12,009 nucleotides of DNA from assembly GCA_014378225.1 (NCBI GenBank), contig JACMOA010000071.1, positions 1 through 12,009 of the forward strand, given 5' to 3'. Under the pieces are notes generated by a model. It did not search any database. It was not told the DNA's origin and saw only the letters and a program-made list of their open reading frames with translations. This DNA comes from Deinococcales bacterium (lineage in GTDB: Bacteria > Deinococcota > Deinococci > Deinococcales > Deinococcaceae). The number at the start of each line of letters is the position of its first letter. Position 1 is the stretch's first letter. Positions 1-12,009 of the stretch are shown here, piece by piece. The translations under genes and the position numbers were made by a program.

Positions 1-45
1 AACCCAGAACCCAAAACCCAAACCCGAGAACCCAAAACCAACCCC
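1..45. repeat. Degenerate AACCCAAA-type low-complexity stretch
   Basis: The first 45 bases are almost pure A and C, built from imperfect copies of AACCCAAA / GAACCCA. They lie directly before the first start codon and leave no Shine-Dalgarno sequence. Related purine-rich strings (CCGAAAAC, GAGAAC) occur at 4448-4475 and, on the opposite strand, at 10967-10988, so this may be a dispersed simple-sequence element of the genome. No function can be read from it. Confidence 0.5.
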
Positions 46-567
46 ATGACCCCCATCACCCTAACCTACACCCTCGAGCGCGAAGACCACCTGGCCCTAG
101 CGCTGCACACCGTCCGCACCGACTTCCTGCAGCGCCGCCGCACTCAGATTAACCGCATTGTGTTGGCGCTTGCGCTGGCCTTATGGATGATTTTTCTGGC
201 TCGAGTGTTCAACTTTTCTGGCTTAGTGGGTGTGGCCCTGCTCAGCGCGGGCATGGGAATTCTGGGTTACTGGCTCTATCCCCGGCTGGTCGAGGCGGCT
301 ATCCGGCAGCAAACCACGGCCTTTTACAACCGAAACCCAGGGGCGCGTGGGGAGCAAACTCTCACCCTGACCGGGACTGAACTGACCGGGCGCTCGAGCA
401 AATCCGAAGTTCGTTTCGAGTTGAGCGCAGTACAGCGCCTCGAGCAAAGTCCTACGCATCTGTTCGTTATGCTGGGTGAAAACAACGTGATTATCGTGCC
501 AAAGCGGGCTTTCTCGAGCGCGGAGGAACAAAAGCAATTTGTGGTAGGGGTCTCGAGTAGGGCGTGA
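46..567 (+). CDS. YcxB-like two-TM membrane protein
   Basis: This 173-residue protein has a short polar N-terminus (residues 1-35, with an Arg-rich patch near 30-33). Two hydrophobic helices follow at about 38-53 and 58-77, and then a soluble domain of about 90 residues rich in beta-strand pattern. The end of the soluble part (VIIVPKRAFSS...EEQKQF) matches what I know of the YcxB-like C-terminal family, a widespread domain of unknown function on small membrane proteins. The start is the only reasonable ATG. No Shine-Dalgarno is visible, because the upstream 45 bases are AC-rich. The next gene begins 63 bp downstream on the same strand. The family assignment comes from motif memory, not a search. 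The molecular role is unknown. Confidence 0.65.
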   Translation: MTPITLTYTLEREDHLALALHTVRTDFLQRRRTQINRIVLALALALWMIFLARVFNFSGLVGVALLSAGMGILGYWLYPRLVEAAIRQQTTAFYNRNPGARGEQTLTLTGTELTGRSSKSEVRFELSAVQRLEQSPTHLFVMLGENNVIIVPKRAFSSAEEQKQFVVGVSSRA

Positions 568-618
568 GCCACACAGAGAACATCTGTAAATCCAGAACTT
601 GAGGGTGGCTCGAGCGGG

Positions 619-630
619 TAAATTAAACCC
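619..630 (+). promoter_or_regulatory. Possible -10 box giving a near-leaderless mRNA
   Basis: TAAATT at 619-624 lies six bases before the ATG at 631, and no Shine-Dalgarno precedes the start. A -10 at this spacing would start transcription at or next to the ATG. Leaderless genes with a TANNNT box just upstream of the start codon are common in Deinococcus. No good -35 is seen at 17 bp, so read-through from the upstream gene is the alternative. Confidence 0.3.
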
Positions 631-1302
631 ATGCCTCGAGCCATCATTTTTGACCTGGACATGACCTTGCTGGACCGCCGCGCCAGTGTGGAGCAGTATT
701 TGCAGGGCAGCTTGGAGCGCCTGAAACTCGAGCCGCACGAGTATTCGAGCTACCGAGAACGGTTTCACTTTTTTGACCTTGAGGGCTACGGTCCCAAAGA
801 GGTTTTATTCTCGAGCCTGCAAGTGGAATTTGCCCTCGAGCACGCGGTCCAGGATTTGCTCGAGGAATTCTGGGCGCACATGGCGCTTTACCCACATCCT
901 TTTGATGATGCCCTCGAGACCTTGACCGTCCTCAAATCACGCGGGTACAAGCTGGGTATCGTCACCAATGGACAAACTTCACAGCAATGGGGCAAAATCA
1001 GAAACGCAGCGCTCGAGCCATTTTTTGAAACCATCGTGGTGTCTGAAACCGAGGGAATCCAGAAACCAGACCCAGAAATTTACGCTCGAGCGGGTTCACG
1101 CCTGAACGTTCCTTTGGCAGAGTGTTTATTCGTGGGCGACCACCCGGAAAATGACGTTCTGGGCGCAGCTCGAGCGGGCCTAAAAACTGCGTGGCTGAGT
1201 CAGGGCCGTGTGTGGCCCTCGAGCGAGGGAAGCCCTGATTTTGTGCTCGAGGGTTTGACGGATTTGGTGGGTCTTTTAGGGCGCTCGAGTGAAGCAGATT
1301 AA
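631..1302 (+). CDS. HAD-superfamily hydrolase (YjjG-like, HAD-IA type)
   Basis: This 223-residue cytoplasmic phosphatase-type enzyme has all four HAD motifs. Motif I is FDLDMT with nucleophile Asp8 and acid/base Asp10. Motif II is the IVTNG strand near residue 110. Motif III is the Lys of QKPDPEIY. Motif IV is the GDHPEND acidic loop. The helical cap sits between motifs I and II, as in subfamily IA. Length and cap position suit YjjG-like (d)NMP/pyrimidine 5'-nucleotidases or phosphoglycolate-like phosphatases, but the substrate cannot be read from sequence. The gene follows a YcxB-like gene by 63 bp. Its TAA overlaps the TAA of the convergent gene on the other strand. CTCGAG occurs about a dozen times in it, in all three codon frames. 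Confidence 0.85.
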
Positions 1303-1898
1303 AGTTTTGAGCGCATCTGAATCGCCTGAACCACCAGCACCACACCTGAAATCAGTGCGTAAGCCCCAATCACAGCAATGACCGAGAGTGCGCCCACCCC
1401 AGGGTTTAGGTAAAGTAAAACGCCAAAAATCACGCTAACCAGCCCGCTCAGGCCCACGGCCCATTCCCAGGCTCCTGGAATTTCGTTTCTAAGCCTGTAT
1501 GCCGCTATCATCTCGAGGATTCCACTGAATACGGCCCAGAACGCCACGGTGTAAAGCAAAAACAAACCCGTAAAGCCAGGTGAAAGCAGGGTAAAAATAC
1601 CCACGCCTACGCCCAGAAAGCCCATAATGGCGGTCCAGCCCCAGGAGCGGCTCGAGGTGTGACCAAAAGCATAAATCAGGGCGCTTACGCCGTCAAACAG
1701 CACGTAAATGCCAAACAGCAAGACGAGATAGGACAGGGTGAGTCCCGGTGAAAACAGCGCCAGTAGGCCAAAGCCAATGGCTATGAGACCCCGCAGCAGG
1801 GTAAAGCCCCAGCCGTGCGCCCTCACTCGAGCGGGGGAGGGAGGGGTGGAGGTTTGGGGTGGAGGCGAAGAAGGTGAAATGGAGCCGCTTTGAGTCAT
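1299..1898 (-). CDS. HdeD family (DUF308) membrane protein
   Basis: This 199-residue protein begins with a Ser/Pro-rich cytoplasmic-looking tail (residues 1-28). It then has about six hydrophobic segments, near 31-50, 53-76, 88-106, 108-133, 143-163 and 166-194. A unit of the form G-x-(6-8)-G-(3-4)-(F/L)-(S/N)PG recurs three times (around residues 36-52, 92-108 and 150-167), which is the short internal repeat typical of HdeD/DUF308 proteins. E. coli HdeD is linked to acid resistance; the role here is unproven. The start is supported by TAGGAG seven bases before the ATG on the minus strand. It converges with the HAD gene, sharing the bases TTAA at the two stops, and no terminator separates them. 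Confidence 0.8.
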
Positions 1899-2077
1899 AG
1901 TTTTCTCCTAATAAATAACTTAAAAGTTGTGCAGACTCGAGCGGCTTTAATAAAGGTTGGGTCCTGAACTTCTTGGCTCGAGGGCTGAAGTTAGTTTACG
2001 CTGGACGCAAATCTTGGGGCAAGGGGTAAAACCTAATCAGACGGTCATCCACCCGTAGCACAGCGCATCCGCAAATC

Positions 2078-2100
2078 ACTTGAGTCAGGACCTCTCAAGT
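2078..2100 (-). terminator. Small perfect stem-loop at the kinase stop codon
   Basis: ACTTGAG (2078-2084) and CTCAAGT (2094-2100) form a perfect 7-bp inverted repeat with a 9-nt loop, beginning at the last base of the kinase stop codon. There is no T-run after it on the minus strand, so it could aid 3'-end stability or weak termination but is not a classic intrinsic terminator. Confidence 0.3.
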
Positions 2101-2921
2101 CAGGAATGCTCGAGCTGGTCCCCGAGCATTCCACGCAACACCAGCGCGTTGCCGATGCGTTCAGAAGGGTTTTTGCGAAGCAGCATCAAGCATAGAGCGT
2201 CCAGTGAATCCACCGAGCTTCCCCGAACCTGATGCGGCGGAACCGGAGCGCTCGAGACGTGCTGGCGCATCACTTCTGGTAGGGTTCCGTAAAAAGGAAG
2301 TTGCCCACTCAGCGCCCAGTACATCAGCACGCCCAAACTATATAAATCTGTGGCGGGGGTGGAGGGATTGCCCAGCGCCTGTTCTGGGGCCATGTAGCCC
2401 GCAGTTCCCATGGCGATACGCTCTTCGAAGACCTCGCCCACTGGGCCAGAAAGGTCGAAATCAATGAGTCGGATGCTGTAATCCGGCGTAACCATCACGT
2501 TTTCGGGCTTGAGGTCGCGGTGAACCACTCCGTGTTCGTGGATGTAGGCCAGTGCCTCGAGCAGTTGAATCAACACCTTTAAAAAATCCTGTCTACGCTC
2601 GGTTCCGCGCTCGAGGGCGGTGTGTCCATCCTGGGCTGCAAACACCCTGCTCAGCACCTCTCCAGGCGCGTAGTCCAGCAGCAGTCCCGGCTGGTTTTCG
2701 ATGGTCAGGCGCTCGAGCACAGGATTGATGAGCGGGTGTTTCCAGGTGTGGGCTAACTGGTACTCCCGGTTGACCCGGCTCTCGAGGGCGGGAGGCAGCA
2801 GTTTGAGCACGTAGGGACGGCCTTCAGGGTCAAAGACCAAGTACACCACACTGTTAGCTCCCCGTGCAAACGGGCGCACCACGCGGTATCGGCCTGAGAT
2901 GAGGGTGCCCTGAAGCGCCAT
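2100..2921 (-). CDS. Soluble Hanks-type Ser/Thr protein kinase with DFD in place of DFG
   Basis: The 273 residues are essentially one kinase domain with no membrane helix or sensor domain. In order: a glycine-loop remnant (ARGANSVVYLVF, 19-30), ATP-binding Lys40 (YVLK), a candidate alpha-C Glu53, the catalytic loop HRDLKPEN (134-141), the metal-binding motif at 154-156, the APE motif (178-180), TDLYSLGVLMYWALSG (191-206) and the subdomain XI Arg in NPSERI. The metal-binding triplet is Asp-Phe-Asp instead of Asp-Phe-Gly, and the glycine loop has fewer glycines than usual. The key Lys, Asp136, Asn141 and Asp154 are intact, so activity is plausible. The gene stands alone, divergent from signal peptidase. 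The substrate is unknown. The start codon lies just after a -10-like box, with no Shine-Dalgarno. Confidence 0.88.
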   Translation of the reverse strand: MALQGTLISGRYRVVRPFARGANSVVYLVFDPEGRPYVLKLLPPALESRVNREYQLAHTWKHPLINPVLERLTIENQPGLLLDYAPGEVLSRVFAAQDGHTALERGTERRQDFLKVLIQLLEALAYIHEHGVVHRDLKPENVMVTPDYSIRLIDFDLSGPVGEVFEERIAMGTAGYMAPEQALGNPSTPATDLYSLGVLMYWALSGQLPFYGTLPEVMRQHVSSAPVPPHQVRGSSVDSLDALCLMLLRKNPSERIGNALVLRGMLGDQLEHS

Positions 2922-2936
2922 TTACAAGGACTATAG
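2922..2936 (-). promoter_or_regulatory. -10-like box for a leaderless kinase transcript
   Basis: Read on the minus strand, TGC-TATAGT (an extended -10 form) ends nine bases before the kinase ATG, and no Shine-Dalgarno lies between. Transcription would then begin at or beside the ATG. No convincing -35 is seen at the usual spacing. Confidence 0.45.
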
Positions 2937-2945
2937 CACGGGGTT

Positions 2946-3022
2946 CTCGAGCTTTTCGAGCAGAAATTCATTTTATGAACACCTCGAATCGAGTATCCTA
3001 ATTCGGTCTATTCCGCCGAGGT
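2946..3022. promoter_or_regulatory. Divergent intergenic region with nested palindromes
   Basis: Between the divergent kinase and signal-peptidase genes lie three palindromic elements. One is CTCGA/TCGAG around 2946-2960. The second is the odd-centred palindrome CTCGA-A-TCGAG at 2983-2993. The third is ACCTCG (2981-2986) facing CGAGGT (3017-3022). They could be operator sites or stem-loops. Nothing identifies a regulator. Confidence 0.3.
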
Positions 3023-3047
3023 GGGATATTGCCGCCAACTTTGTATT

Positions 3048-3076
3048 TTGATTTGCAGCAAAAGCGAGTGTAGCGT
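3048..3076 (+). promoter_or_regulatory. Candidate promoter of signal peptidase gene
   Basis: TTGATT (3048-3053) and TAGCGT (3071-3076, of TANNNT type) are separated by exactly 17 bp. The expected start is near 3083. This gives a very short leader before the ATG at 3092, whose likely ribosome site GAGGGG is formed by the tail of a CTCGAG copy (3079-3084). Confidence 0.4.
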
Positions 3077-3091
3077 GGCTCGAGGGGAACC

Positions 3092-3907
3092 ATGACCGAC
3101 ATTGAAAATCCTACTGGGGCAGATAAACCGGGCATAGCGCCGGGTAATCAGGCGGGAGCGCCGGAAAGTTTTGGCCGCAAGCTGTGGCGCGAAGTCATCA
3201 AGCCGTACGGCGAGGCTATCTTATTTGCCGTGGTCATTACCACGTTTCTGTTTACTCTGGTGGCGGTAGACGGAACCAGTATGATGCCCAACTTGAGAAC
3301 CGGGGAGCGGGTCTTTATTCCCAAATATGAAACCTGGCTGCACCGAGTAGGTATCGGCAGCTTTCAGCGCGGCGATATTCTGGTGTTCAAACCACCTGGT
3401 GACGCTGGAGACCGGGTGAGCTTTCTGGGATTGTGGAACTACACACCTTTTCTTATCAAACGTTTGATTGGGCTGCCCGGTGACAAGATTAGGATTGATA
3501 AAGGTGTTGTTTTTCTCAATGACAAGCAACTGGACCAGAGCTTCACCACTGATTACTGGAAGAAACGGGGCTGCTGGGAAACCGACGGCAATTATGCCAA
3601 CAACGTGGACTTCAACAACAACGATGGCCGCAGCCTCACCGTTCCAGCGGGTCAGTATTTCATGATGGGAGACAATCGCAATGTGGGGGGAAGCCAAGAC
3701 TCGAGATTTTTTGGTACGGTCCCCATGAACAACGTCTCGGGCCGCGCTACCTTCGTGTTATGGCCTTTTGTGCGCCAGACCGAGGCGGATTACACCTGTG
3801 ATAGCAACAGCAAAACCTCGGTCAAGTTGAGTGGTGAAAACGTGGGCAACTGGCGGATTCTGCAAAGGCCAGACGGATTCAAGGCGCTCGAGGGGACGAC
3901 TCCATAA
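3092..3907 (+). CDS. lepB: Signal peptidase I
   Basis: This membrane-bound serine protease cleaves signal peptides from exported proteins on the outer face of the cytoplasmic membrane. The 271 residues contain a polar N-terminus (1-38), one transmembrane helix (about 41-59), and box B with the nucleophile Ser63 in GTSMMPNL. Box D has the general base Lys123 in LIKRLIGLPGD. Box E follows as GDNR (193-196) plus the SQDSRFFG segment. The catalytic Ser/Lys dyad is complete. An Asn-rich insertion (about 155-180) lies between boxes D and E, and the C-terminal tail of about 45 residues carries a lone Cys. The single N-terminal helix is the Gram-positive-like arrangement, unlike the two helices of E. 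coli LepB. The gene appears to be monocistronic. Confidence 0.93.
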   Translation: MTDIENPTGADKPGIAPGNQAGAPESFGRKLWREVIKPYGEAILFAVVITTFLFTLVAVDGTSMMPNLRTGERVFIPKYETWLHRVGIGSFQRGDILVFKPPGDAGDRVSFLGLWNYTPFLIKRLIGLPGDKIRIDKGVVFLNDKQLDQSFTTDYWKKRGCWETDGNYANNVDFNNNDGRSLTVPAGQYFMMGDNRNVGGSQDSRFFGTVPMNNVSGRATFVLWPFVRQTEADYTCDSNSKTSVKLSGENVGNWRILQRPDGFKALEGTTP

Positions 3908-3930
3908 GAATTCTCGTGAAACAGCGATTG

Positions 3931-4051
3931 GGAACAAGGATAAAATAACTTTCCAATTTTGAAAATCCCCTTGTCATGTTGAGCAAAGCGAAACATCTCA
4001 ACCCAGTGGATATTTAGACCCTTCGCCTCGCTCAGGGTGACAGAAAAAAAG
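3931..4051. repeat. Dispersed hairpin repeat, copy 1
   Basis: This segment aligns without gaps, at a constant offset of 7916 bases, to 11847-11967. Weaker similarity continues to about 4074 after a 1-base indel. Its core is an imperfect inverted repeat with arms 3973-3997 and 4017-4041, which pair at about 20 of 25 positions if G-U pairs are allowed. The arms carry GAGCAAAGCGAA and TTCGCCTCGCTC. Similar GAGCGAAGCGAA...TTCGCNNCGCTC elements are, to my knowledge, common non-coding repeats in many bacterial genomes. Sitting 24 bp after lepB, the hairpin followed by an A-run may also shape the 3' end of the lepB transcript. Confidence 0.8.
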
Positions 4052-4115
4052 TGTTATTGCTCGAGATAAAACACGGAAGTTAGCTCAATCCCAATCCTTA
4101 GCAATTAGCAAATAT

Positions 4116-4148
4116 ACCGCTCGAGCAGTTTTATAGTGTTCGAGCGGT
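4116..4148. repeat. Perfect 9-bp inverted repeat containing CTCGAG
   Basis: ACCGCTCGA (4116-4124) and TCGAGCGGT (4140-4148) are exact reverse complements around a 15-nt loop. The left arm contains a full CTCGAG copy and the right arm a TTCGAG variant. On the plus strand it is followed by TTCGCTTTA rather than a clean T-run, so termination is possible but weak. Confidence 0.5.
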
Positions 4149-4260
4149 TTCGCTTTATGGTCCTAAATTTGTCCACCCTGTTCCAGGAATCAGCACAGAC
4201 TGTTACAACCCCAACGTTTTATTAGTGGTCAGTACACAAGCGCTCAAGCTTATAAGTCCT

Positions 4261-4289
4261 TTACACACAGGTCTTACACACTTTACACA
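4261..4289. promoter_or_regulatory. Iterated TTACACA words upstream of the glmS promoter
   Basis: TTACACA occurs at 4261-4267, 4274-4280 and 4283-4289, spaced by 13 and 9 bases, with related GTACACA at 4231-4237. They lie just upstream of the proposed -10 element. An activator or repressor array is one reading; compositional AC-richness is the other. Confidence 0.3.
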
Positions 4290-4307
4290 ACACACTCTCC
4301 CGCGCTG

Positions 4308-4341
4308 TGCTAAACTCCTGCAAGCGTGGACCGAAGTCCAC
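4308..4341 (+). promoter_or_regulatory. glmS promoter (extended -10) and 5'-end hairpin
   Basis: TGC-TAAACT (4308-4316) fits an extended -10 element; no good -35 lies at 17 bp. The predicted start is near 4322-4324. Immediately after it, GTGGAC (4326-4331) and GTCCAC (4336-4341) form a perfect 6-bp stem closed by CGAA, which would cap the nascent 5' end. The order -10, start, 5' hairpin, then ribozyme is self-consistent and supports this placement. Confidence 0.45.
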
Positions 4342-4379
4342 TCGAGGAGGGAAAGGCCAGAAATGCGGGTTAAGAGGGC

Positions 4380-4622
4380 AGCGCAAGGTCTGGAGAGGGT
4401 TTCAAGTGGTGAGGTATCGGTTTTCAGTGAGGCAACGAGTCTTGACTGAAAACTGAGAACCGAAAACTGAAAACTACTTTCAGAAGACGAGGTGACGGTG
4501 AGCGAGTTTCTGCGGATGCCGTCAGGGTGGAGAAACGCACCCTTCCCCGCTCGAGTGAACTGCTCGAGCAAGTGCGGTTATAAGCGACGCGGTGACGCGA
4601 CGATAATGCCGGATACGGTTTT
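4380..4622 (+). ncRNA. glmS_ribozyme: glmS ribozyme (glucosamine-6-phosphate riboswitch)
   Basis: This element is a self-cleaving RNA that uses glucosamine-6-phosphate as cofactor to cut its own mRNA, leading to glmS shut-off. By comparison with the Bacillus ribozyme as I remember it, the cleavage site is A4380/G4381 (A|GCGC..GG). P1 is TCTGGAG (4389-4395) with TTTCAGA (4478-4484). The conserved GACGAGG follows at 4486-4492. P2 is GACGG (4494-4498) with CCGTC (4519-4523), enclosing GCGGATG (4512-4518). The core helix CGCA (4382-4385)/TGCG (4511-4514) replaces Bacillus CGCC/GGCG, a compensating change. P3 is AGGGTG (4524-4529) with CACCCT (4538-4543). P4 is CGGT/GCCG (4575-4578/4608-4611), with P4.1 CGCG-GTGA-CGCG (4588-4599) closed by a GNRA loop. 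A weak P3.1 pseudoknot may pair 4532-4536 with 4618-4622. P1 is enlarged, and an extra CTCGAG stem separates P3 from P4. Confidence 0.88.
4549..4569 (+). repeat. CTCGAG-built stem inserted between P3 and P4 of the ribozyme
   Basis: GCTCGAG (4549-4555) and CTCGAGC (4563-4569) form a perfect 7-bp hairpin with loop TGAACTG. The Bacillus ribozyme has only a short joining segment here. The added stem consists of two copies of the genome-wide CTCGAG word. Confidence 0.6.
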
Positions 4623-4676
4623 GAAGATTTGGGAATAGGGTCAGGCCGACCAGAAAAGATTTGGAGGGTTATAACT

Positions 4677-4721
4677 CCCAACTCGAGCCTAATTTTTGGG
4701 TTTCTGAAACTCGAGGTTGGG
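4677..4721 (+). repeat. CTCGAG inverted repeat in the glmS leader
   Basis: CCCAACTCGAG (4677-4687) pairs with CTCGAGGTTGGG (4710-4721) as an 11-bp stem with a single bulged C and a 22-nt loop. It lies between the ribozyme and the glmS start in an untranslated stretch of about 240 nt. No T-run follows, so attenuation is not indicated. A smaller stem (GTAC-AAAT-GTAC, about 4837-4848) lies just before the ribosome site. Confidence 0.45.
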
Positions 4722-4851
4722 TTTTGGAGTGTGAGGTCTTGGCGTATGCAGTTAAATAGACTGCTCGAGCGAGAGGACGTTTAACGCAGGTTGAACGCTG
4801 CTTTTGCTCCGGCTCTGAACTGCTGCTTGAGGGTGGTACAAATGTACTCAA

Positions 4852-4858
4852 AGGAGTT
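4852..4858 (+). promoter_or_regulatory. glmS ribosome binding site
   Basis: AAGGAGT is a strong Shine-Dalgarno sequence centred about eight bases before the ATG at 4863. It fixes the start so that the second residue is the catalytic cysteine. Confidence 0.75.
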
Positions 4859-4862
4859 TTAG

Positions 4863-6701
<1,839 letters not shown>

Positions 6702-6713
6702 GAGACGGGAGCC

Positions 6714-6752
6714 AAAAGAAGAGGAAGCTTTCTCAGCTCCCTCTTCTTTTTT
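6714..6752 (+). terminator. Bidirectional intrinsic terminator between glmS and the kinase operon
   Basis: AAAAGAAGAGG (6714-6724) and CCTCTTCTTTT (6740-6750) form a perfect 11-bp stem, with a nested AGCT/AGCT pair inside the loop (6726-6729, 6735-6738) and six T residues on the plus strand (6747-6752). On the minus strand the stem ends in TTTT. It lies 12 bp after glmS and about 30 bp after the convergent kinase gene, so it can serve both. Confidence 0.88.
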
Positions 6753-6784
6753 ATGCCCTCAAGCGTGTTGACTCGAGCGCTTTA

Positions 6785-8866
6785 TCAATCGGTCATTTCA
6801 AAGCCTTCTTTCACGTACATCGCCAGTGAGGTCACAGGTTCGTAGGTCTCGAGGTGGGGCAGAGCGCGACCTGTGGAGTTGAACTTCTGAATCTGGTGCA
6901 GGCCAGGACGAGCGGCGTAGACGTTGCCCTCGTGGTCGGCAGAAATCTGAAGCGCCTGCTCGAGGTCTTCTCCGGGCAACGTGTCCAGCGCGAAACTCTG
7001 CACCGCCTTGCCCTCCCCGTTGATGCGCCGAATCTTTCTCGAGGGGATGTCCGAAATATAGATAGCCCCGCTCGAGTCCATGCCCAGACCGTCCAGAGTT
7101 CGCAGTTCGGGGTCGTCTTTAGACATTTTGAAGGCAAACCTGGAGAGATATTTTCCCTCGGCGTCAAAGCGCTGCACCTGACGGTTTCCGTAGTCCAGCA
7201 CGTACACGCTGTCGTCGTATCCAGCCACAATCAGGCGGGGGTCGTTGAAGGTTCCCTTGCCGCCGCCGTTGCCACCAAAACGCCCCAGGTACTCGCCGTC
7301 CAGATTGAAGCGCTGCACAATACAGGTTTCGCCATCCAACACGTAAAGTTCCTGGGTGATAGGGCTGATAGACAGCGCCACCGGATGCAGAAACTCACCG
7401 GGTTTGAGGCCGTAAGCCCCAAAGGCCAGCAATTCCTCGCCACCCGGCGAAAACTTGCGAATCATCTTGGGAACCTCGCCGCTCGAGCGGTAACTCACGA
7501 TGGCGGCGTAAAAGTTTCCTTTTGGGTCTACCGCCACACCCACAGGCGCGGCGGGAAGTGCGGTTCCAGGAGCAATCACGCCCACGCTAGATTGCAGGTT
7601 GCCTTCGCCGTCCAGTCGCCGCAGCACCCCTTTACGGGCGTTGGTAGACAATACCAGATAGCTGGGAACGTTGGCCTGGACCCGCTCCTCAAGCACGCCT
7701 GCGTCCAGACTCTCGATGATTTCGCTCAAACTTGGGCGCTTTTCCGGGTCCTTCTCCACCATGCTCATAATCAGGTCCGAGAGTGGCCCCGGAATCTCGT
7801 GGTTGATTTGCTTGGGCGGTGGTGGCATCTGAAACACCTGCTGGTGAACCACCACTTCGTAACTACCTTTAAAGGGCGTCTGGCCGGTAATCAGTTCGTA
7901 AAATACCAGCCCCAGACTGTAGATATCGCTCCTCGAGTCCAGTTTTTGGCCTTTGGCCTGCTCGGGACTCATGTAAATGGGGGTTCCTACCCGTGCCCCG
8001 GTCATGGTCAGGCGGGTCAGTACCTTGCCCACCGCAATCCCGAAGTCCATCAGCTTAATCCGGTCTGGGCGCAGTCCAGCAATCCCTTCCTGACCCAGCG
8101 CCACCATCACGTTGGCGGGTTTAATGTCGCGGTGGATAATGCCCTGACTATGAATATAACGCAATGCGTCTGCCAAGGAACGCACAATTAGGATGGTTTG
8201 GTCAAAGCTGAGCTTGTGGGTTTCCATCACACTCTCGAGCGTTTCACCTTCTACAAATTCCATGGCGATGTAGTGGTGGTTGCCCTGAGAGTTGTGGTCG
8301 TAGACTTTAATCACGCTAGGGTGGGACAACCGTTTGAGCACCTCGGCTTCGCGGTGAAAGCGGCGCACAAATTTAGCGTCTGCCACAAATTTCTCGAGCG
8401 GAATCTTGAGCGCAGACATGCGCCCATCCTCGAGCTTGCGGCCCCGGTACACACTGGCCATACCACCCACTCCCACCCGCTCGAACAGTTCGTAACCGGG
8501 AATCTGGAGCGCCTCTCCGATGAGTGAAGGATTCTTAGACTTGCCCCCCACACCAGTAGTCTTGTTACGACCTCCCCTTGCGCCGCCCATCTGTGGAAGA
8601 TTGAGGGTGAAAAGGGGTCCTCTGACCACGGCCCCGCGTCGTCGCGGTCCTTTCTGAGCATTGGGTTTGCCCAGCACTACAAGAGCGCTAGACGTCAGCA
8701 GGAATGCGCCCACCATCGCACCGCCTGCTCTGGCGACGTTGTCCAGACTGGCCTGATACAACGCGAAGACCAGCGCAAACAGACCCAGAGTGAGGGCCAG
8801 CGGCGTTTCGCTAAACTTTAAAAAAAGAAGCAGAGAAACGACAAACAGCAACAAAAGTATAATCAT
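6785..8866 (-). CDS. Membrane-anchored Ser/Thr protein kinase with C-terminal NHL propeller
   Basis: The 693-residue protein has three N-terminal hydrophobic segments (about 1-17, 21-38 and 47-66) and a basic Gly-rich linker (67-120). The complete Hanks kinase domain (about 125-390) has the loop VGVGGMASVYRG (131-142), Lys154, HRDIKPAN (245-252), DFG (274-276), GTPIYMSPEQA (295-305) and RSDIYSLGL. A C-terminal region (about 415-690) holds roughly five or six NHL-type beta-propeller blades, with repeated patterns such as DPKGNFY, QELYVLD..IVQRFNLDGEYLGRFG, DSVYVLDYGNRQVQRFDAEGKYLSRF and GAIYISD...IRRINGEGK. M. tuberculosis PknD also carries an NHL sensor, but outside the membrane. Here no helix lies between kinase and propeller, so both are predicted to be cytoplasmic. 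The gene follows its phosphatase by 25 bp, with GGAG before the ATG. Confidence 0.92.
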   Translation of the reverse strand: MIILLLLFVVSLLLFLKFSETPLALTLGLFALVFALYQASLDNVARAGGAMVGAFLLTSSALVVLGKPNAQKGPRRRGAVVRGPLFTLNLPQMGGARGGRNKTTGVGGKSKNPSLIGEALQIPGYELFERVGVGGMASVYRGRKLEDGRMSALKIPLEKFVADAKFVRRFHREAEVLKRLSHPSVIKVYDHNSQGNHHYIAMEFVEGETLESVMETHKLSFDQTILIVRSLADALRYIHSQGIIHRDIKPANVMVALGQEGIAGLRPDRIKLMDFGIAVGKVLTRLTMTGARVGTPIYMSPEQAKGQKLDSRSDIYSLGLVFYELITGQTPFKGSYEVVVHQQVFQMPPPPKQINHEIPGPLSDLIMSMVEKDPEKRPSLSEIIESLDAGVLEERVQANVPSYLVLSTNARKGVLRRLDGEGNLQSSVGVIAPGTALPAAPVGVAVDPKGNFYAAIVSYRSSGEVPKMIRKFSPGGEELLAFGAYGLKPGEFLHPVALSISPITQELYVLDGETCIVQRFNLDGEYLGRFGGNGGGKGTFNDPRLIVAGYDDSVYVLDYGNRQVQRFDAEGKYLSRFAFKMSKDDPELRTLDGLGMDSSGAIYISDIPSRKIRRINGEGKAVQSFALDTLPGEDLEQALQISADHEGNVYAARPGLHQIQKFNSTGRALPHLETYEPVTSLAMYVKEGFEMTD

Positions 8867-8891
8867 GACTCAAAACTCCGCTGCTCCATTT

Positions 8892-9674
8892 TCATGCTCC
8901 TACCTTGACGATGATGCCGGTTACATTATCCGGTCCACCTCGCTGATTAGCCAGATTGATGAGATAGTCCAGAGCGGCCTGAGGGTCAAAGTTTCCCTTG
9001 AGTTCGGCTTTCATATCAGATTCCTCGACCAGTCCGTGTAGACCATCGGTGCAAAGGAAAAAAATGTCACTGGGTTGAACCTTGAGACCCCGAATGTCGG
9101 CCTGGACCTGGGGTTTGGTTCCCAGCGCTCGAGTGATGATGTTGCGGTAGGTGTGCTCTTTGGCTTCCTCGGCGGTCAAAAAGCCTTTGGCTACCTGCTC
9201 GGCCACCCAGGAGTGGTCTTCTGTAACCTGGCGCAACTCACCGCGCCGCACCAGCAACACTCGAGAGTCTCCCACATGGCCCAAGACGGCACGGCCCTCG
9301 TAAAACACCAGAGCGCTGAGCGTGGTGCCCATACCGCTGAGGTTGGGGTCGTAAAGCGCTGCTTGATGAATATTGCGGTTAGCCAGGGTAAACCCGCGCT
9401 CGAGCACCTTCTCGAGGGCAATCACCTCTCGGCCCTGCTGCATGGCGGTTGCGTACCCACTCAGAATCTCGGTCAGCGTTTCGATGGCCAATTTGCTGGC
9501 TTTTTCTCCAGCCACCGCGCCGCCCATACCATCTGCCACCGCCACCAGTTGTAAGGTTCCTTTGGGGGTGGAAAACGCTTTGATGCGGTGATAATCCTCA
9601 TTGCTCTCGCGCACCCGTCCGGGGTGAGAACCGTGACCCAGTTGCAAATTTAGTGATTGCACGGTACGCTCCAC
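8892..9674 (-). CDS. PP2C-type Ser/Thr protein phosphatase (PppL/PrpC/Stp-like)
   Basis: This 260-residue cytoplasmic Mg/Mn-dependent phosphatase should reverse the action of the kinase encoded just downstream. It has the standard bacterial PP2C motifs: RESNEDY (Asp27), VADGMGG (Asp48, Gly49), GTTLSALVF, GHVGDSRVLLVRRGEL (Asp136), ITRALG, FLCTDGLHG (Asp210) and GGPDNVTGIIV (Asp249, Asn250). All metal-binding aspartates are present. The start is not certain. The frame opens with GTG at 9674, and no Shine-Dalgarno is clear upstream. A second in-frame GTG four codons later would shorten it without touching the domain. It is the first gene of a two-gene operon, with 25 bp to the kinase. Kinase/PP2C pairs are a common bacterial signalling layout. 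Confidence 0.93.
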   Translation of the reverse strand: MERTVQSLNLQLGHGSHPGRVRESNEDYHRIKAFSTPKGTLQLVAVADGMGGAVAGEKASKLAIETLTEILSGYATAMQQGREVIALEKVLERGFTLANRNIHQAALYDPNLSGMGTTLSALVFYEGRAVLGHVGDSRVLLVRRGELRQVTEDHSWVAEQVAKGFLTAEEAKEHTYRNIITRALGTKPQVQADIRGLKVQPSDIFFLCTDGLHGLVEESDMKAELKGNFDPQAALDYLINLANQRGGPDNVTGIIVKVGA

Positions 9675-9880
9675 ATCGTAAGGACAATTCCAAGCCTTGC
9701 CCGATTCCTCATATTAACCTTATCCTAGCACGCTTTATCTGAAGCACAGTGCAAAAATCAGCATAGTGCTTTGTTGAGCCACCAGGTAACTTCTCCGCCA
9801 CACTAAATACGTTTGGGGTCTTCTCTTTCTAACTCGCTCGAGAGTACACTCAGGAGCAAAGTTACCTTTCAGGAGTGTGC
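9675..9880. promoter_or_regulatory. Divergent intergenic region, phosphatase/oxidoreductase
   Basis: These 206 bp separate divergent genes and must hold promoters for both. On the minus strand TGC-TAGGAT (9730-9722) could be an extended -10 for the phosphatase. On the plus strand TACACT (9845-9850) could be a -10 for the oxidoreductase, just after a CTCGAG at 9837. No convincing -35 hexamers are visible. Confidence 0.3.
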
Positions 9881-10963
9881 ATGACCCGAATCGGCATTGT
9901 TGGCACTGGAAATATCAGCGGCATTTATCTGGAAAACGCGGCCAGACTAGGCTACGAGGTTCTGGCTGTAAGCGACCTGGACCTCGAGCGGGCGCAGGCA
10001 CAGGCCACACAGTACGGCGTTCCGCACGCGCTCAGCGTGGACGACCTGCTGGCTCACCCAGACATCGAAATCGTGCTCAATTTGACCATTCCGGCGGCGC
10101 ATGGACCCATTGCACTGCGCTCACTCGAGGCGGGAAAGCACGTTTACAACGAGAAACCCCTGGCTAGCACGCTTGAGGAGGCGAAAAAGATGCTCGAGCG
10201 GGCGGCTCAGAAGGGACTGCGGGTAGGGTGCGCCCCAGATACTTTTTTGGGCGCGGGGTTTCAGAGTGCGCGTGAACAGCTCAAAGGGGGAATCATCGGG
10301 CAACCGGTTCACGCCAGCGCTCTGATGGCCAGCGTGGGGCCGGAAGGCTGGCATCCCGACCCCTCCTTTTTCTTTCAGCCAGGAGCAGGACCGTTGTTTG
10401 ATATGGGGCCGTATTACCTGACCGCACTCATCTCACTGTTTGGTAGCGTCTCGAGCGTGTTTGCTACGGTTAAGAGTACCCATACTGAGCGCACGGTGGG
10501 CAGCGGCCCTAAAGCGGGGCAGAGCGTTCCAGTCAACACTCCTACCCATGTGAGCGGGGTGCTGAACTTCGAGAGTGGACTGAGCGCCAGCCTGACCATG
10601 AGTTTTGACATGGTGCCGGGAAGTGCCCCGCTGCTCGAGGTTTACGGCACGAAGGGTTCGCTGACCCTGCCAGACCCCAACACCTTTGGCGGCCCTCTCG
10701 AGACCCATAGCGTTACGGGAGAAAAAATCGAACTTTCCCTGAACAAACCTTTCGAGGACAACTCGAGGGGCCTGGGGCTGGCGAATATGGCTCAGGCTAT
10801 ACAGGAAGGCCGCCCTCATCTAGCCAGCGGTCAATTGGCTTATCACGTCCTCGAGACGATGTTCAAACTGCTTGAGTCTGGAGAGGCTGGCAAGCTCATG
10901 ACCCTCGAGAGCAAGGTAGTGCGTCCAGAAGCGTTGGGAGAAATTGCCGCTCGAGTGGGTTAG
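9881..10963 (+). CDS. Gfo/Idh/MocA family NAD(P)-dependent oxidoreductase
   Basis: The 360-residue protein is a two-domain sugar or polyol dehydrogenase. The N-terminal Rossmann fold has GIVGTGNIS (5-13) with an acidic end of strand 2 near SDLDLER. The family signature is EKP (91-93), with Lys92 in the catalytic site, and the C-terminal alpha/beta domain carries the DMGPYYLTAL helix. I chose ATG 9881 over the in-frame GTG at 9875. AGGAG (9871-9875) is a Shine-Dalgarno five bases before the ATG, and the GTG would overlap it. The next gene on the same strand is a xylose-isomerase-like protein, and the two families often work together in inositol-like or rare-sugar catabolism. The substrate is unknown. 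Confidence 0.9.
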   Translation: MTRIGIVGTGNISGIYLENAARLGYEVLAVSDLDLERAQAQATQYGVPHALSVDDLLAHPDIEIVLNLTIPAAHGPIALRSLEAGKHVYNEKPLASTLEEAKKMLERAAQKGLRVGCAPDTFLGAGFQSAREQLKGGIIGQPVHASALMASVGPEGWHPDPSFFFQPGAGPLFDMGPYYLTALISLFGSVSSVFATVKSTHTERTVGSGPKAGQSVPVNTPTHVSGVLNFESGLSASLTMSFDMVPGSAPLLEVYGTKGSLTLPDPNTFGGPLETHSVTGEKIELSLNKPFEDNSRGLGLANMAQAIQEGRPHLASGQLAYHVLETMFKLLESGEAGKLMTLESKVVRPEALGEIAARVG

Positions 10964-10966
10964 GTT

Positions 10967-10988
10967 GAGTTCTCGGTTTTCGGTCTTT
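10967..10988 (-). repeat. Short copy of the CCGAAAACCGAGAAC simple repeat
   Basis: On the minus strand this stretch reads GACCGAAAACCGAGAACTCA. It resembles 4448-4475 in the ribozyme P1 arm and, more loosely, the first 45 bases. It lies in the 93-bp gap between the last two genes, which otherwise shows only an AT-rich patch. Confidence 0.35.
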
Positions 10989-11056
10989 AGCAAACATACC
11001 AATCAATTTTTGTTCATAGTTCATTGCTCACCACTTGTCTCCAAAAGGAACTCCCC

Positions 11057-11791
11057 ATGAACCAACCTCAAATCGGCGTCCAGATGTACACTTTGCGCGA
11101 CCCTGCAGAAAAAGATTTTGTAGGAACTCTCGAGCGCGTTTCTCGAATGGGTTTTGCAGGCGTGGAATTTGCCGGGTATTTTGACCTCAAGGCTAAAGAC
11201 TTGAAAGCCGTGCTCGAGCGCCTGAATTTAGCTCCGGCGGGTTCTCACCGCTCTTATGACCAACTGCTGGGTGAGCTTGAGGAGCACACCGATTACGCGC
11301 TCGAGCTGGGACTGACCCACTTAATTTGTCCCTACGCCCGTTTTGATACGGACGCCGAGTGGCTAGATTTAGCGGCACGGCTCGAGACGGTGGCCCAAAC
11401 CTTGAAAAAGTCTGGAATCACGCTGTCTTACCACAACCACGACCACGAGTTAACCCAGAAAATTGGCGGTCAAACCGTGCTAGACGCTATCCTCGAGGCC
11501 GCGCCTAGCATGAGCGCCGAGCTTGACGTGGCCTGGTTAGAGGTAGGTGGCTATTCTGCCGCTGAATACCTAAACAAGTATGCCGCACGCGCCCATCTGG
11601 TTCATCTCAAGGATTACGGGCGCGAGGGCGACAAGGTGAGCACCCTCGAGCTGGGCCGGGGCCTCACTGCCCTACCCGCTGCACTCGAGGCCGCAACAGG
11701 AGCACAGTGGTGGCTCATTGAGCAGGATTACTGTGCTGGAGACCCTTTTGACAGTTTACAGATAAGCCTTGAGTGGTTAAAGGCGAATTGA
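11057..11791 (+). CDS. Sugar phosphate isomerase/epimerase (xylose isomerase-like TIM barrel)
   Basis: This 244-residue member of the AP-endonuclease-2/xylose isomerase-like fold is typical of IolE/IolI-type sugar and inositol isomerases or epimerases. Metal and active-site candidates in order are Glu37 (GVEFAG), the YHNHDHE motif (125-131), Glu155/Asp157 in AELDVAW, His183 in HLKDYG and Glu222 in IEQDYC, which is the family pattern of E/D/H ligands around a barrel. The start is ATG 11057, preceded by AAGGAA (11045-11050). An in-frame TTG upstream at 11024 has no ribosome site. It lies 93 bp after the oxidoreductase with no terminator between, so co-transcription is likely. The substrate cannot be inferred. 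Confidence 0.9.
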   Translation: MNQPQIGVQMYTLRDPAEKDFVGTLERVSRMGFAGVEFAGYFDLKAKDLKAVLERLNLAPAGSHRSYDQLLGELEEHTDYALELGLTHLICPYARFDTDAEWLDLAARLETVAQTLKKSGITLSYHNHDHELTQKIGGQTVLDAILEAAPSMSAELDVAWLEVGGYSAAEYLNKYAARAHLVHLKDYGREGDKVSTLELGRGLTALPAALEAATGAQWWLIEQDYCAGDPFDSLQISLEWLKAN

Positions 11792-11846
11792 AGTTAGGCG
11801 CTCGAGGGCGACTTGAATTTTTTAGACAGAACCGGAACTTTTTTAA

Positions 11847-11967
11847 GGAATGGGGATGAAATAACTTCCCGATTTAAAGAATCTGCTTGTTCTGTCGAGC
11901 AGGGCGAAACATCACAACCTGTCCGATATTCAGACCCTTCGCCCTGCTCAAGGTGACAGAAAAAAGG
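11847..11967. repeat. Dispersed hairpin repeat, copy 2
   Basis: This is the second copy of the element at 3931-4051, in the same orientation and without gaps over the 110-bp core; weaker similarity runs to about 11989. Its inverted-repeat arms are 11889-11913 and 11933-11957, with a perfect inner stem AGCAGGGCGAA/TTCGCCCTGCT. Compared with copy 1, paired positions have changed together (AGCAAAGC/GCCTCGCT here becomes AGCAGGGC/GCCCTGCT), so the stem rather than the sequence is kept. As in copy 1, it follows the end of a plus-strand gene (56 bp downstream). Confidence 0.8.
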
Positions 11968-12009
11968 GTCGTCGCTTAAAATGAAACACTCGAGTTATTT
12001 CGTCTCCAT

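Follow-up and report, generated by a model that had tools for sequence, protein, structure and literature searches.

CTCGAG as a hyper-abundant palindrome in a Deinococcales bacterium and its relatives, possibly kept as a protein-bound site

Why should a bacterial genome repeat one six-base palindrome inside its genes and between them alike? The question is raised by a 12,009-bp stretch of Deinococcales DNA (contig JACMOA010000071.1; the whole stretch is called the window here), which is contig 318 of the draft genome G000 (1.94 Mb, 59% complete). The window contains CTCGAG 91 times, exactly the number that the initial annotation had estimated by hand, and the word is the top-ranking 6-mer; a hand calculation from base composition gives a chance expectation of about 3.5. 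Genes and gaps carry the word, as had been stated: the ten genes hold 74 sites (7.4/kb) and the remaining 2,016 bp hold 17 (8.4/kb). An order-4 Markov model for the window expects 85.3 copies, near the count, because the 5-mers within CTCGAG share the same excess. In the whole draft, CTCGAG occurs 14,690 times, one per 132 bp, and the control palindrome GAGCTC, built from the same bases, occurs twice. In a readable sample of 91.2 kb, window included, 768 copies are present (8.4/kb), compared with an order-2 Markov expectation of 50.6. The annotation had raised two outcomes against a special word, a genome count near the Markov expectation and an equal enrichment of other CG-centred hexamers. 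The count is far higher than expected, and the CG-centred palindromes CGCGCG, TCGCGA and CCGCGG occur 0, 0 and 1 times in the sample. Eleven other 6-bp palindromes have no copy there, and the runner-up palindrome, AGCGCT, has 83 copies with 45.0 expected.

Protein motif preference and codon bias had been judged insufficient to explain the word, and the reading frames bear this out. The divisions among frames claimed for glmS and for the first gene, whose six copies fall in all three frames, are both exact (Table 1). Each genic place whose amino acids permit CTCGAG was scored as written or not. In G000, the word spells 401 of 476 Leu-Glu pairs, close to saturation (31 expected), and is written at 132/266 and 79/198 permitted places in the other frames. 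The related genome G005 (433 kb) has the word at 1,220 of 1,835 Leu-Glu pairs and at 448/1,234 and 562/892 places in the other frames; the corresponding fractions in G003 are 10/126, 1/161 and 0/126. The weight of the word, defined as its enrichment given the codon usage estimated outside CTCGAG, is similar in all contexts. For frames 0, 1, 2 and non-coding DNA, it amounts to 112/58/43/41 in G005, 76/75/59/35 in G000 and 22/33/39/30 in G007. Over G000 and G004–G007, it spans 22–112 in frames 0–2 and 22–49 in non-coding DNA, mostly 20–110 overall, and in G002, which offers few sites, it reaches 66–212 in frames 0–2. The frame-0 weights are somewhat inflated because CTCGAG also creates Leu-Glu pairs. 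The density in G005 is 5.7/kb in coding and 6.0/kb in non-coding DNA. Near start and stop codons, site density stays roughly level, with the minimum bin (41; others 43–75) immediately before start codons. That CTCGAG is in excess, is ubiquitous and does not depend on codon use is established.

The proteins themselves are altered. Leu-Glu is the most over-used dipeptide in G000, G001 and G005 (2.6, 1.9 and 2.3 times expectation), with 2.58 (95% interval 2.38–2.86) in G000, 2.30 (2.20–2.43) in G005 and 1.06 in G003. The over-use extends to all six word-rich genomes (2.2–2.7), and G026 and G033, where the excess of the word is milder, reach 1.6–1.7. The reverse dipeptide, Glu-Leu, stands at 0.75 in G000, 0.80 in G001, 0.97 in G005 and 1.18 in G003. 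Therefore, at least in the rich genomes, CTCGAG alters amino acids and not codons alone. The glmS protein has nine Leu-Glu pairs in G000 and 3–10 in eleven other genomes; this count is unremarkable, and the case for a proteome effect therefore comes from the larger samples. A DNA word that reshapes a proteome has consequences for phylogenetics, for codon models and for statistics on dipeptides.

The search covered 111 Deinococcota genomes, representing one order and five families. The rich genomes are G000, its genus mate G002 (6.2/kb) and four genomes of family f2 (5.9–6.5/kb), each with 2–25 copies of GAGCTC; overall, the source bacterium and its close relatives carry one CTCGAG per ~130–170 bp. 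The density in f2 samples is 5.7 to 7.9/kb across 45%–60% GC. Within the family of G000, G001 (96% complete) is intermediate, with 3.6/kb, and G003 is not enriched (0.30/kb). Twenty more samples were taken from 19 genomes of families f3–f5 and from the named Trueperaceae locus L003, four of them only 3.5–6 kb long. CTCGAG is the highest-z palindrome in 13 of the 20 but not in G012, G018, G024, G057, G097, G110 and L003. The first 50 kb of the Allomeiothermus silvanus plasmid pMESIL01 contain 63 copies (20.3 expected). A specific excess is lacking in the first 50 kb of Deinococcus radiodurans MP1 (8 seen, 13.0 expected) and of Thermus thermophilus pTT27, where CTCGAG (45/20.4) is accompanied by GAGCTC (55/25.1). 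The graded strength among relatives and the loss inside one family pose a comparative question, namely which gene tracks CTCGAG. The excess in Deinococcota appears unreported in the open-licence literature, judged from the abstract openings of the best-ranked matches, and a word search of Elhai 2015 (PMC4390886) found neither Deinococcus nor Thermus nor CTCGAG.

In addition, many other palindromes are strongly avoided in the G000 sample and in relatives, in a set that differs by genome: GATC has 8 copies with 251 expected in G000, GGCC 0 with 212 expected in G004 and CCGG 5 with 42 expected in G002. The pattern resembles what a succession of many restriction systems in these lineages might leave behind.

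The word is also present on a phage contig. The viral contig IMGVR_UViG_3300049491_000613 (L506/L659; 45% GC) carries 95 sites in 17 kb, matches terminase, SU10-like portal, capsid and adaptor proteins, and uses Leu-Glu at 2.05 times expectation. It lacks GGCC and CCGG, as family f2 does (10.5 kb checked), and this composition suggests its host. In a first viral scan for clustered words, the densest 14 among the matches listed were GC-rich contigs only (59–72%). In two scans with an AT-rich word, this contig was the only one among the best 20 of at least 237 loci to show the host signature clearly. Searches of the viral collection with its portal and capsid found no close relative beyond itself. 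Another viral piece, L487 (1.2 kb), contains three copies of CTCGAG.

The sites are not independent of one another. Joint occupancy of two attainable sites was compared with 200 permutations within frame and 10-kb block. In G005 genes, 13 pairs are seen at 9–12 bp (35.6 expected), 41 at 12–20 bp (91.5), 91 at 20–30 bp (126) and 157 at 30–45 bp (195), giving ratios of 0.37, 0.45, 0.72 and 0.80, and none of the 200 permutations is as low in any of these bins. At 90–150 bp, the ratio is 1.00 (748/748). G000 genes are likewise depleted up to 30 bp (2/12, 27/44.6 and 33/43.8; ratios 0.17, 0.61 and 0.75) and stand at 0.99 at 90–150 bp; the 60–90 bp ratios are slightly low in both genomes (0.92 in G005, 0.90 in G000). 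G004 and G007 offer few pairs; at 12–20 bp they tend in this direction (11/17.9 and 5/8.3, values reached by 4 and 18 of the 200 permutations), and their occupancy is flat at 20–60 bp. Generic inverted pairs of hexamers with the same GC (4 GC) served as a comparison over the 9–45 bp bins: their last three ratios in G005 genes are 1.18, 1.25 and 1.20, and G000 genes give 1.23 (17 pairs) in the first bin and 1.10 and 1.23 in the last two. Around non-coding G005 sites, the 20–45 bp bins are low (0.71, 0.72). Some intergenic G005 pairs at 12–20 bp form terminator-like hairpins, CTCGAG-loop-CTCGAG with longer stems. A T-run adjoins 10/24 non-coding and 21/108 coding close pairs in G005, and 3/13 and 7/50 in G000.

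The sites are also conserved in place, as alignments of one 20-kb query stretch indicate (G005 as reference). G005 sites are intact at 46/64 places in G004 (13.1 kb aligned at 79% identity), 10/16 in G006 and 19/37 in G007, and control hexamers are retained at 28–29%, 25% and 18%, respectively. Transition near-misses of the word are enriched 2.0–2.7-fold in G005 and 1.4–2.4-fold in G004 (1.0–1.1 in G003); two of the three are clearly enriched in G000 and one of three in G007. Transversion near-misses are sometimes high as well, such as ATCGAG (2.0 in G000) and GTCGAG (2.2 in G001, 1.8 in G003). All 6-mers scatter by 0.5–1.0 log2 units in these models, so the near-miss data are only moderate evidence against consumption of near-misses. 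The C-to-T near-miss depletion expected of a very-short-patch-like repair toward CTCGAG was not seen. Where G005 lacks the word over long distances, the DNA is mostly AT-rich and may have arrived recently. Of ten open reading frames (ORFs) scanned in such gaps, five match no family and one gave a sub-threshold match; the remaining four encode a D12 methyltransferase, an O-antigen ligase, an S41 peptidase and, at the edge, a penicillin amidase.

Taken together, these observations lead us to favour, tentatively and at somewhat less than even confidence, the reading that CTCGAG is a highly iterated palindrome (HIP), comparable in kind to HIP1 but in a second phylum, and that selection for a bound site, or a repair bias that mimics such selection, maintains it. 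The likeness to HIP1, which the annotation had proposed, stands as to kind: the excess is many-fold and genome-wide, it affects coding and non-coding DNA in all frames, and sites are conserved in place. It does not extend to HIP1 itself, because the G/C-flanked 8-mer core is not found in G005. The proposed extension by G on the left and C on the right (GCTCGAGC) occurs at 43–46 of the 91 window sites on either side but is weak in G005, where G precedes the word at 28% of sites against a base share of 22%; it is a local tendency. The purpose of HIP1 has long been an open question. For CTCGAG, the force would target the word as such, whatever the reading frame and also between genes, and would amount to weak selection, with the natural logarithm of the weight (3–4.7) probably giving the size of 2Ns. 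The site would be bound by an abundant sequence-specific protein with a nucleoid, repair or self-recognition role, whose footprint of roughly 20–45 bp may make a nearby second site useless or harmful. Selection for a bound site is preferred because neighbouring sites are non-independent, near-misses are not depleted and no common methyltransferase is found in the families screened; a repair, recombination or nucleoid signal, also suggested at the outset, remains by elimination. A bolder and more doubtful version is that the chromosome is tiled every 100–200 bp by sites of an architectural or self-recognition protein, and that selection for them is sufficiently strong to dictate synonymous codons, to create about half of the Leu-Glu pairs, to write RNA stems (the final helix of the glmS ribozyme among them) and to be copied by the phages of these bacteria.

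Several results weigh against selection for a bound site. No CTCGAG-binding protein was identified, and the binder is postulated. A repair bias favouring CTCGAG would behave like selection in these data, and the finding that 7 of 14 G005 transition near-misses are CTCGAG in G004 fits either alike. The G000 bin at 30–45 bp is not depleted (82/78.2, 1.05). G004 has few pairs (3 and 4 of 200 permutations as low at 9–20 bp), and G007 also has few, with nothing clear below 60 bp and an unexplained dip at 60–90 bp (26/38.9). Ratios below 1 occur for generic inverted pairs too, at 0.74 in G005 (9–12 bp, 35 pairs), 0.78 in G000 (12–20 bp, 29 pairs) and 0.50 at 6–12 bp over all G000 DNA, so part of the genic crowding may be hairpin avoidance. 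Pairs centred on non-coding G005 sites are in excess at 12–20 bp (1.38, 36 pairs). Furthermore, in the word-enriched G096, CTCGAG spells 25/36 Leu-Glu pairs although this dipeptide reaches only 0.86 of its expected use (20 kb). The gene calls throughout are crude longest-ORF picks.

The main rival is a methylation-linked repair bias (Elhai's model), in which a methyltransferase marks CTCGAG, mismatch repair preserves changes that produce the word and undoes those that destroy it, and the word itself has no function. We consider it a serious but rather unlikely alternative. Cyanobacteria with an abundant alternate HIP have a matching methyltransferase (PMC4390886), and orphan CTCGAG methyltransferases are reported in Nocardia (PMC4752239). 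The presence of the word on the phage contig is likewise expected if host enzymes imprint it. The methyltransferases themselves were screened with six Pfam families in 20 of the 111 genomes, and matches were obtained for PF12950 in 5 genomes, PF01555 in 10, PF00145 in 9, PF02384 in 17, PF07669 in 15 and PF02086 in 9. They are numerous in the rich genomes, which suits the model, apart from the incomplete G000, which gave no match. However, among 67 methyltransferase-like proteins from G001, G002 and G004–G007, no cluster formed at 35% identity with 60% coverage of the shorter sequence occurs in more than three of the six genomes; the widest is a cytosine methyltransferase group of G002, G004 and G005. 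Single linkage at 30%/50% joins the cytosine enzymes of all six genomes, which appears to reflect family-level kinship. G001, with 3.6 words per kb, has no match to PF01555, PF12950 or PF02086. The suggested methylation mark is unsupported within the six families screened, which gave no orthologue common to all six genomes at 35%/60%. Moreover, the model saturates at about one site per kb (PMC4390886), 6–8 times below the density here, and the repulsion is strongest below 30–45 bp. Methyltransferase genes carry CTCGAG at 55–86% of the genome rate.

An uptake or recombination tag spread by molecular drive, like the DNA uptake sequences (DUS) and uptake signal sequences (USS), is unlikely. Uptake words resemble CTCGAG in their hyper-abundance, and terminators contain inverted pairs of them (PMC2397512); some intergenic pairs here form terminator-like hairpins, and a competent member exists in the phylum. 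The uptake-like tag suggested initially nevertheless fits poorly, because the exclusion range is only tens of bases: DUS spacing matches the conversion fragment size (PMC2397512), which we take to be far longer. In addition, no uptake specificity is known in the studied relative T. thermophilus, as far as the source covers it. Still less likely is a purely local mutation bias toward the word, another early suggestion. Such a bias would affect every frame, DNA outside genes and phages alike, but the crowding of sites and the enriched, unconsumed transition near-misses disfavour it.

XhoI and PaeR7I are restriction-modification systems that recognise CTCGAG. A relic or shadow of such a system is very improbable as the source of the excess, and this cause is largely refuted. 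An XhoI-family nuclease is found in 4 of the 111 genomes (intact in G012–G014, broken by stops in G108), none of them rich, and was not found in G000–G007 (G000 being 59% complete). The intact carriers are word-poor in their genus (0.69–0.97/kb vs 1.65–1.97), a point for this reading, but GAGCTC declines in them to about the same extent, so this contrast is weak. Restriction would also lower the number of sites rather than raise it, as in G012 (7 seen, 7.0 expected) compared with its genus mate G009 (36/10.3). A DNA methyltransferase adjoins the nuclease in G012 and G013; it has close kin in G015 and G044 (62–67%) but is at most 28% identical to the compared PF01555 matches of the rich genomes. 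Composition, codon or amino-acid preference can practically be dismissed, being refuted by the GAGCTC control, the enrichment in all frames and in non-coding DNA and the f2 density across GC contents, although CTC and GAG, as common codons in GC-rich relatives, account for some of the raw count seen in Thermus-like genomes.

The features of the window are given in Table 1. The final helix of the glmS ribozyme consists of the CTCGAG at 4550–4555 paired with that at 4563–4568, and a long insert lies within its first variable helix. The closest named glmS is that of an uncultured Trueperaceae (57%). Two segments are repeated elsewhere. Positions 3928–4102 hold a dispersed repeat of up to ~170 bp (matching pieces 67–175 bp), present at several places in G000 (78–90% identity) and in G002 (71–81%); its fold is only mildly stable (z −1.9), and no Rfam match lies there. 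Positions 11846–11976 recur on G000 contig 136 (79%), and G002 has 30 bp at 97%.

Table 1. Annotated features and CTCGAG sites of the 12,009-bp window
Feature	Position	Strand	CTCGAG sites or remark
CTCGAG sites (91; word count)	73, 200, 393, 439, 513, 552, 609, 635, 727, 810, 835, 859, 913, 1012, 1085, 1169, 1218, 1246, 1284, 1512, 1651, 1826, 1936, 1977, 2109, 2251, 2556, 2610, 2712, 2781, 2946, 3079, 3700, 3887, 4060, 4120, 4341, 4550, 4563, 4682, 4710, 4764, 4932, 5052, 5301, 5547, 5566, 5727, 5934, 5999, 6130, 6263, 6312, 6450, 6536, 6568, 6645, 6772, 6848, 6959, 7038, 7071, 7482, 7932, 8234, 8393, 8429, 9128, 9260, 9399, 9411, 9837, 9983, 10124, 10193, 10450, 10634, 10697, 10762, 10850, 10904, 10950, 11129, 11213, 11300, 11381, 11492, 11645, 11684, 11801, 11989		
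YcxB-like gene	46..567	+	6 sites, frames 2/1/3
HAD hydrolase	631..1302	+	12 sites
DUF308 protein	1299..1898	-	3 sites
Ser/Thr protein kinase	2100..2921	-	6 sites
Signal peptidase S26	3092..3907	+	2 sites
glmS ribozyme (RF00234), upstream of glmS	4369..4579	+	37.5 bits, cut-off 37
glmS	4863..6701	+	15 sites: 9 Leu-Glu, 3, 3
Ser/Thr kinase with weak NHL-type repeats	6785..8866	-	9 sites
PP2C phosphatase	8892..9674	-	4 sites
Gfo/Idh/MocA oxidoreductase	9875..10963	+	10 sites
Xylose-isomerase-like TIM barrel protein	11024..11791	+	7 sites, every one Leu-Glu

Among known systems, XhoI/PaeR7I shares the word with the genomes described here, but its nuclease family, present in few genomes of the phylum, was not found in the rich ones. 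The orphan methyltransferase of Nocardia (Blow 2016, PMC4752239) also has CTCGAG as its word; in Nocardia, however, the word clusters beside dnaA, whereas here it is spread genome-wide and no such enzyme was found in the families screened. The DUS of Neisseriaceae and Pasteurellaceae (Treangen 2008, PMC2397512) are similar in being abundant words under selection or molecular drive, and their inverted terminator pairs may have a counterpart here. In contrast to them, CTCGAG is a 6-bp palindrome with an exclusion over tens of bases, and it is about equally dense in G005 genes and outside them, while neisserial uptake words are mostly intergenic. The closest likeness is to HIP1 (GCGATCGC) and the alternate HIPs of cyanobacteria (Elhai 2015, PMC4390886), which are likewise genome-wide hyper-abundant palindromes with lineage-specific loss. 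CTCGAG differs from them in its phylum, its length of six bases, its weak flank preference and the lack of a shared methyltransferase in the six families screened, and a dipeptide effect and a short-range repulsion are measured here. Most HIPs are quoted at 500–2,500 per Mb, although a degenerate word is described as exceeding this range; CTCGAG reaches 5,900–7,600 per Mb. It represents a second, much denser HIP-like case in another phylum.

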